Assembly: GCA_022769005.1 (NCBI GenBank)
Contig: JALEKK010000035.1
Location: 1-64,000 of the forward strand
Reading direction: 5' to 3'
DNA length: 64,000 nucleotides
From: Lachnospiraceae bacterium
Lineage (GTDB): Bacteria; Bacillota; Clostridia; Lachnospirales; Lachnospiraceae
Shown here: positions 3,586 through 5,803 of the stretch, one piece after another
Layout: each line of letters begins with the position of its first letter
How positions within the stretch are numbered: the first letter of the stretch is position 1
The notes under the pieces: model-generated
Database searches by the model: none
Seen by the model: the letters and a program-made list of their open reading frames with translations, nothing else
Told to the model about the DNA's origin: nothing
Position numbers and translations under genes: made by a program

Positions 3586-4017
3586 TCAATTCTTTTCCGT
3601 ATCTTCAAGTATTGAAGTACAATGCGGACATCTTGTAGCGGAAATATCTATTTCGCTTTTACAAAACGGACAAATCTTTGTTGTCGGTTCTTCTTCGGCA
3701 ACCGCTTCGGTTTTTCTTAATGCCGCCTTTTTGAATCCCATCATTGCCTTGATAAGAAGAAATAAAACCAATGCGATTAAGAAAAAGTTAATTGCGGTCA
3801 TAATAAAACTGCCGTATTTGAATTCCGCATCTCCGAACTTAACACTTAAATCATTAAAGTTTATTCCGCCGGTAAAAAGTCCCAAAAACGGTGACAATAT
3901 ATCTTTGACAAGGCTGTTGACAATTGCTGTAAACGCACTGCCCATGATAATACCCACGGCCATATCAAAAATATTACCTTTTGATATAAATTCTTTAAAC
4001 TCCTTTATAAAGCCCAT
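3586..4017 (-). CDS. mscL: Large-conductance mechanosensitive channel with C-terminal zinc ribbon
   Basis: MscL forms a pentameric pore that releases solutes during hypo-osmotic shock. The amphipathic N-terminal helix ([20 protein letters not shown]), TM1 with [19 protein letters not shown] and TM2 at about residues 68-94 ([20 protein letters not shown]) are all present. Where other MscL proteins end in a short charged bundle, this one continues into a zinc-ribbon pair: C116-x2-C119 and C130-x2-C133 (CPFC, CPHC). At 143 residues it is near normal length, so the ribbon takes the place of most of the usual tail. AAGGAGG precedes the ATG. It is cotranscribed with holA. The channel call is secure; what the zinc site senses or holds together is unknown. 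Confidence 0.93.
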
Positions 4018-4101: not shown

Positions 4102-4962
4102 TTAAATGTCAAATTTCTTAATAAAGCTTCTCAACAGGTGTTCCGATAAAACAGAAGTTGTTATGCTTCCCACTCCTCGCGGAACGGGAGTTATTAGTTT
4201 GGCCTTTTCAAACACCGATCCATAATCTACATCTCCGCATAATTCTCCGTTTTCATCGACATTTACACCTACGTCTATTACAACAGAGCCGTCCCCTATG
4301 TAACTCCCGTCAATCATCTTCGCTTTTCCGACGGCTGCAATAACTATATCAGCCCTTTTGCAGATATCTTTTAAATTTCTCGTATGTGAATGACAAATCG
4401 TAACCGTTGCGTTTTTGTCGATTAACATCATTGAAACCGGTTTCCCGATTACATTGCTTCGTCCTATTACGGTGACATTTTTCCCGTCCGTTTCTATATC
4501 GGAGTACTCCAATAACTTTATTACCGCTTCTGCGGTGCAAGGGGCATATCCGCCTGTTCCTGCATACAGACATGCCATATTGGTAAGTGTAAGACCGTCC
4601 AAATCTTTTTCCGGGGAAAAGTTTGAAATTGTTTCCCTCGTATTGATATTTTCAGGCAGCGGCATAAATAACAGTATTCCGTCGATATTATTATCGTTGT
4701 TTATTTTAATAAATTCTTTTTGAAATTCTTCATTTGTTATATTTCCGTCAAATTCAAATATTTCAAAATTCATTCCCAATTTTTCAATTCTTTTAACGGC
4801 GCCTCTCTCATATGCAAGATCATCGTCTCTTTTGCCTATTCTTACAATAGCAAGCTTAGGAAGTCTTCCCGGATATTTATCGCTTTTCTTGGCCGCTTCC
4901 AGACTGTCGGTTATCTTCTCGCATATTTTCTGTGCTACGGGTCCACCCAAAAGTTCAGCCAT
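4102..4962 (-). CDS. folD: FolD-like methylene-THF dehydrogenase lacking cyclohydrolase residues
   Basis: The family oxidises 5,10-methylene-THF to methenyl-THF with NAD(P)+ and usually hydrolyses that to 10-formyl-THF. The Rossmann part is intact (VIGRSNVIGKPVSMML, HSHTRN, AAVGKAKMI, VIDVGVN), as are KDLDG and PLPENI. However, the family motif SQxYVxxK reads DLAYERGA here, so the catalytic lysine (K54 in E. coli) is Ala, and VQLPLP reads LFMPLP, so the catalytic Gln (Q98) is Phe. PVPGGVG reads PVPRGVG. From established work on FolD these residues serve the cyclohydrolase step, so I infer a dehydrogenase-only enzyme. The cyclohydrolase-type FchA gene ends 20 bases upstream of this start, in the same direction. 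Ribosome binding site GAGGGAG. Confidence 0.9.
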   Translation of the reverse strand: MAELLGGPVAQKICEKITDSLEAAKKSDKYPGRLPKLAIVRIGKRDDDLAYERGAVKRIEKLGMNFEIFEFDGNITNEEFQKEFIKINNDNNIDGILLFMPLPENINTRETISNFSPEKDLDGLTLTNMACLYAGTGGYAPCTAEAVIKLLEYSDIETDGKNVTVIGRSNVIGKPVSMMLIDKNATVTICHSHTRNLKDICKRADIVIAAVGKAKMIDGSYIGDGSVVIDVGVNVDENGELCGDVDYGSVFEKAKLITPVPRGVGSITTSVLSEHLLRSFIKKFDI

Positions 4963-4982
4963 ATTTTCTCCCTCTTAATAAC

Positions 4983-5648
4983 TTATACATTCTCGTCGGT
5001 TCTGAGTGACACAATAACCTTAGGAAGATTATTGGCTCTTATCTGGAACGATCTCTTTATAAGTTCATCGGCCTCCTCATTCATCTTATCAGCCACACTT
5101 CTGTTTTTCATAAGTTTGGTATTGCAATATACGTTTAACGCCGCGGATGTTGCCGCTGCGTCACATAAAAGCAAACCTGTTCCAATATCACTTACAGCCA
5201 ACTTTGTACCTATCTCCGTAAGTCTTTCCAATATTTCCATTGCAGGGATGATCTTCCTTATAAGTTCAAGAGGAGCACTTGCGGCGACAACCAGTAACTC
5301 TTCAAGAGTTTCTTCCTTATACTTTTTCTCTTCTTCCGTTTCGCTCGGAAGTGAATATGCCCCGGCAAGAGGCAGGAAACTTTCGGCGTCCCTGCTTATT
5401 CCGTCCATAAGATCTTCTCTTATTACATCTGCGGTTTTTATAATATCTTCTATCTCTTCCTGATATTCCGCATATTTCTTTTTACCGCTTGTAAGATTTG
5501 CAACCATTCCCGCAAGAGCGGTTCCGAGAGAGGCCACATATGCGCTTACACTTCCGCCGCCGGGAACAGGTGATGATGTTGACAAAAGTCCGCAAAAGTC
5601 CTCTATGGAGAGATTTTTTATCATATCCATATCTAATTGTTCGTCCAT
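4983..5648 (-). CDS. fchA: FchA-type cyclodeaminase / methenyl-THF cyclohydrolase
   Basis: This 221-residue protein belongs to the formimidoyl-THF cyclodeaminase family, whose stand-alone clostridial members act as methenyl-THF cyclohydrolases. The hallmark SPVPGGGSVSAYVASLGTAL lies near residues 20-40, and the rest is helical (DADVIREDLMDGI-type helices, SDIGTGLLLCDAAATSAAL) as expected. I chose the ATG at 5648 because GGAGG stands five bases before it; a longer frame upstream has no such site. It is the first gene of a pair with the FolD-like protein that lacks cyclohydrolase residues, which suggests this protein does the hydrolysis. No histidine-degradation genes are near, which argues against a role in formiminoglutamate breakdown. 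Confidence 0.85.
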   Translation of the reverse strand: MDEQLDMDMIKNLSIEDFCGLLSTSSPVPGGGSVSAYVASLGTALAGMVANLTSGKKKYAEYQEEIEDIIKTADVIREDLMDGISRDAESFLPLAGAYSLPSETEEEKKYKEETLEELLVVAASAPLELIRKIIPAMEILERLTEIGTKLAVSDIGTGLLLCDAAATSAALNVYCNTKLMKNRSVADKMNEEADELIKRSFQIRANNLPKVIVSLRTDENV

Positions 5649-5803
5649 ATTTTCCTCCGTAAATTCCGTATAAACATCCGTATATATCATAAAAAGCCAT
5701 TACTTAATATTAAACCGTATCTAAAGCAGAGCTGTATGCAAATGCCGTTGATTGGCGATAAATAAAAGTAATAGCCTTTAATATATTTTATAAAATATAG
5801 TTA

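Follow-up and report, generated by a model that had tools for sequence, protein, structure and literature searches.

Aluri et al. reportedly found in 2016 that FolD of Clostridium perfringens is a dehydrogenase only, and that folD and fchA are both needed to replace folD of E. coli. PMC7219735 notes that FchA exists as a protein of its own in some bacteria, and cites the C. perfringens paper (PubMed 26531681) for it. The dehydrogenase of Peptostreptococcus productus, which is the same organism as Blautia producta, is monofunctional and NADP-dependent (PMC6443876). In Acetobacterium woodii the genes stand in the cluster fhs1-fchA-folD-rnfC2-metVF (PMC10472528). A survey of acetogens terms folD bifunctional, yet most acetogens also carry fchA (PMC10103890). 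The division of labour between FolD and FchA is already published for C. perfringens and B. producta, and the locus described here, from a Lachnospiraceae bacterium, is another case.

Results

We analysed a stretch of 64,000 nucleotides, called here the window. On the coding strand the genes follow the order glutamyl-tRNA synthetase (by its sequence), glnA, fchA, folD, mscL and holA, with fchA 20 bp upstream of folD (Table 1). The fchA start given in a first-pass annotation of this DNA, the ATG at 5648, was kept in preference to the ATG at 5690, because GGAGG lies ahead of it. The second, normal folD that the same annotation had listed as grounds against its own reading was not found: in the small host genome, at 95.7% completeness, folD and fhs each occur once. 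The MscL gene beside folD encodes a zinc-ribbon-like C-terminal tail, CPFC...CPHC, whose matches to Pfam zinc ribbons are weak and below cut-off; such a tail looks unusual in a mechanosensitive channel.

Table 1. Features of the fchA-folD locus (coordinates of the window).
Feature	Position	Strand	Description
mscL	3586-4017	minus	
folD	4102-4962	minus	286 aa; predicted methylene-THF dehydrogenase lacking both the Lys and the Gln of the cyclohydrolase site; function assigned by sequence
LFMPLP, FolD codons 98-103	4654-4671	minus	catalytic Gln replaced by Phe99
DLAYERGA, FolD codons 48-55	4798-4821	minus	YxxxK motif; Lys replaced by Ala55, Val by Glu52
Shine-Dalgarno-like AGAGGGAG before folD	4968-4975	minus	read directly
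fchA	4983-5648	minus	221 aa; predicted methenyl-THF cyclohydrolase, FTCD_C family; the ATG at 5690 is a possible longer start
Shine-Dalgarno GGAGG before fchA ATG 5648	5654-5658	minus	read directly

The window FolD matches both Pfam domains, PF00763 (90.6 bits, cut-off 32.8) and PF02882 (195 bits, cut-off 27). Alignment with E. coli FolD confirmed the loss of two catalytic residues noted in the first-pass annotation: SQIYVASK is replaced by DLAYERGA and VQLPLP by LFMPLP, placing Ala55 where the catalytic Lys stands (Lys54 in E. coli, Lys56 in the human enzyme) and Phe99 where the catalytic Gln does (Gln98 and Gln100, respectively). Since 12 other full-length FolDs and one partial FolD of the family or order share this type of substitution, chance and sequencing error were discarded as its cause. 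The NAD(P) site is intact, as had been claimed, with GRSNVIGKP and CHS both present, and Tyr51, Lys119, Asp120 and Asp122 are retained, of which Tyr51 and Asp122 bind folate. In human MTHFD1, Ser197 contacts the 2'-phosphate of NADP (PMC9173628); Ser192 of the window FolD is probably its counterpart, which makes NADP the likely cofactor. An AlphaFold model of the protein (pLDDT 95.1) superposes on FolD of T. thermophilus with Z 38.8 and on human MTHFD1 with Z 38.6.

The assignment of the lost Lys and Gln to methenyl-THF hydrolysis stands, but it is incomplete, because human Lys56 and Gln100 are credited with a part in the dehydrogenase reaction as well (PMC3368264, PMC6443876). This suggests that the dehydrogenase site, too, has been rebuilt, and it means that dehydrogenase activity of a FolD without these residues relies on precedent. 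The role of Lys and Gln in the dehydrogenase step is still argued (PMC9173628), and the rebuilt site offers a way to probe it.

The first-pass annotation had proposed a test of whether fchA always accompanies the variant FolD. Among 31 genomes of relatives, 25 gave a FolD match. Window-type FolD was present in 14 of them (one partial), all 14 with fchA, mostly adjacent, while fchA was found in none of the 10 with a Lys- and Gln-containing FolD; one further relative (G027) has a FolD with Ile and Glu, and fchA elsewhere in the genome. We then took 196 Clostridia genomes, searched them for FTCD_C and the FolD N-domain and read the FolD motifs from the DNA. FchA scored over the cut-off in 70 of these genomes, 68 of which have a FolD. 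A readable FolD was Lys-less in 67 of the 68, whereas Lys and Gln were both kept in all 59 fchA-negative genomes read, including one with a sub-threshold fchA match (G144). The resulting contrast (67/68 versus 0/59) gives a Fisher p of 7e-36, uncorrected for kinship. For nearly all the remaining fchA-negative FolDs, whose motif was not read, the score against PF00763 was at least 148 bits; the scored Lys-less FolDs all reach at most 127. Four families (f1, f26, f47 and f64) each hold both FolD states, and the state agreed with fchA every time. Together, the sequences point to a near-strict rule across Clostridia that couples Lys-less FolD to fchA.

The one exception, G078, combines an fchA match over the cut-off with a canonical FolD as its only FolD. 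Its FTCD_C protein (L300:5154-5774) has PAGG in place of PGGG, lacks GKKKY and is flanked by ABC-transporter and cysteine-synthase-like genes, and is therefore probably a divergent paralogue of other use. Another genome, G033, carries a FolD of each type, but its assembly is fragmented and the two lie on separate contigs, so one of them may be a contaminant. In five small (0.8-1.1 Mb), near-complete Clostridia genomes of family f19 (G034, G068, G117, G139 and G179) no FolD was found and fchA was not listed.

A set of 80 named loci from the genome collection extended the comparison to Clostridia, Coriobacteriales, Synergistales and the delta-proteobacterium NaphS2. FolD is Lys-less at 72 of these loci, and fchA is in the genome for 69 of the 72 (within 3 kb in 53, elsewhere in 16); it is in none of the 8 with canonical FolD. 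In the remaining three Lys-less genomes, the MAGs L237, L259 and L273, whose completeness is unknown, fchA was not found. Variant FolD in a genome lacking fchA, which the first-pass annotation had also listed as grounds against its reading, was seen only in these three MAGs. In co-located pairs fchA lies ahead of folD in 99 of 101 cases (repeats of a locus counted), and the 86 distinct pairs have a median gap of 17 bp. Identity among FolDs rises with identity among FchAs (rho 0.53, 0 of 999 permutations), a correlation confounded by species kinship.

FchA of the window is a stand-alone FTCD_C domain (PF04961, 196.8 bits), the sole family match in 235 aa, with no formiminotransferase domain. 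The first-pass annotation had described the pair as a bifunctional enzyme split into two proteins. This description fails, as FTCD_C is unrelated to FolD: no gene was split, and a different protein carries one of the two activities. Residues invariant across 27 FchA proteins are present in the window protein (by construction of the alignment); one of them, Asp101, aligns with Asp412 of FTCD, which we take to be catalytic. FchA shares its family with the cyclodeaminase domain found in FTCD, so it could be a cyclodeaminase that acts on formimino-THF in histidine or purine breakdown and lies next to folD by accident; in addition, its 147.9 bits against NCBIfam NF045657, the sole NCBIfam family matched, fall under the cut-off of 275, an annotation threshold and not a biochemical one. 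We consider this role very improbable, given the same-strand order and short spacing of nearly all co-located pairs and the solved structures nearest to FchA, among which the cyclohydrolase 7vg4 (presumably the Methylorubrum protein) is closer than protein 1o5h and FTCD.

Lys-less FolDs vary at the two sites. In the hydrophobic type, Lys is replaced by Ala, Ile, Val, Leu or Met, together with Gln by Phe, Leu or Met; a separate group within family f48 shows Gln in place of Lys but retains Gln98. In the hydrophobic type, Glu stands for the Val that follows Tyr in 70 of 81 FolDs, and Arg for the Leu that followed the lost Gln in 65 of 81, which suggests that the active site was rebuilt and did not simply decay. 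A pocket rebuilt in this way might let FolD stay bifunctional, with residues such as Glu52 or the nearby Arg performing hydrolysis and FchA adding capacity or serving formimino-THF. There is only a slim chance of this, however: Lys-less FolD depends almost completely on fchA, monofunctional enzymes are published, and the window FolD has Glu52 but Met rather than Arg at the second site.

In an unrooted FolD tree built with the motif columns removed, Lys-containing FolDs fall on one side of a branch with support 89, and the hydrophobic type falls on another branch with support 94. One change between Lys and non-Lys suffices on this tree, in which many branches are weak. We therefore dropped the idea of repeated independent Lys loss; with the root unknown, neither the direction nor the number of losses can be read from the tree.

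Two loci depart from the usual arrangement. Genome G211 (L175) carries fchA and two copies of folD, one Lys-less and the other canonical but with a single in-frame TAA in its reading frame; its fchA coordinates are identical to those of L264/G242, so it is probably the Alkaliphilus transvaalensis genome. In an Oscillospiraceae MAG (L241:2362-3843), FchA and FolD share one 494-aa frame with no stop between them and with no ATG, GTG or TTG where FolD normally starts. This is an apparent natural FchA-FolD fusion protein, as judged from its reading frame, although an assembly error is possible since it comes from a single MAG. Among the best matches in 391 genomes of the class, no further fusion lacking a stop between the genes was found.

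Discussion

FolD has lost Lys and Gln but retains the residues for folate and NADP, it is the only FolD of its genome, and fchA is both its neighbour and its near-strict companion across Clostridia; all of this argues for a dehydrogenase-only FolD. We hold with high confidence that FolD would oxidise methylene-THF, probably with NADP, and would not hydrolyse methenyl-THF, that FchA, probably co-transcribed with folD, would act as the cyclohydrolase, and that Fhs, encoded elsewhere in the genome, would link 10-formyl-THF to formate. The three MAGs with Lys-less FolD and undetected fchA count against this explanation. It is extremely improbable that FolD is decaying or repurposed and without dehydrogenase activity, even though two catalytic residues are gone whose human counterparts aid hydride transfer (PMC3368264), for it is the sole folD of its genome, is 55-61% identical over nearly its full length to FolDs of the closest relatives, retains its Tyr, Asp and NADP-site residues and, in the predicted model, folds like FolD.

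Beyond this locus, we see an even chance that the FolDs without Lys are a clade that is both old and distinct and whose dehydrogenase site was rebuilt (a small or hydrophobic residue in place of Lys; Phe, Leu or Met in place of Gln; a new Glu behind the Tyr and a new Arg behind the former Gln), and which with fchA makes a two-gene cassette that replaces bifunctional FolD across Clostridia and into other phyla and has given at least one FchA-FolD fusion. Databases call such FolDs bifunctional, as do the NCBIfam models matched by the window FolD. The Lys of YxxxK and the presence of fchA predict which Clostridia carry a dehydrogenase-only FolD, and metabolic models and drug work on FolD should use both.

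To the known arrangement our analysis adds the signature of Glu and Arg that Lys-less FolDs usually show beside the lost residues, an fchA-positive genome whose canonical folD contains a stop, and the apparent FchA-FolD fusion. Neither this signature, nor such a fusion, nor the near-strict coupling of Lys to fchA was found stated in a limited literature search, which is weak evidence of novelty. C. perfringens is like the genome studied here in having FolD, the separate cyclohydrolase FchA and Fhs, a likeness that concerns the gene set. The P. productus enzyme has been characterised biochemically in a named species, whereas the function of the window FolD is read from sequence; Blautia hansenii (L227) has an Ala/Phe-type FolD with fchA adjacent. 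Dehydrogenase and cyclohydrolase are likewise separate in Methylorubrum extorquens, as MtdA and Fch, but MtdA is a different dehydrogenase and not a Lys-less FolD. Yeast Mtd1 (1edz), monofunctional and NAD-dependent, shares the FolD fold and has dehydrogenase activity only, but it is eukaryotic and distant from the window FolD (E 4e-8, Z 29.2), and we know of no FchA partner for it. In A. woodii, as in the window, fchA is directly followed by folD; there, however, the pair is part of a Wood-Ljungdahl cluster, whereas in the window it lies between glnA and mscL-holA.
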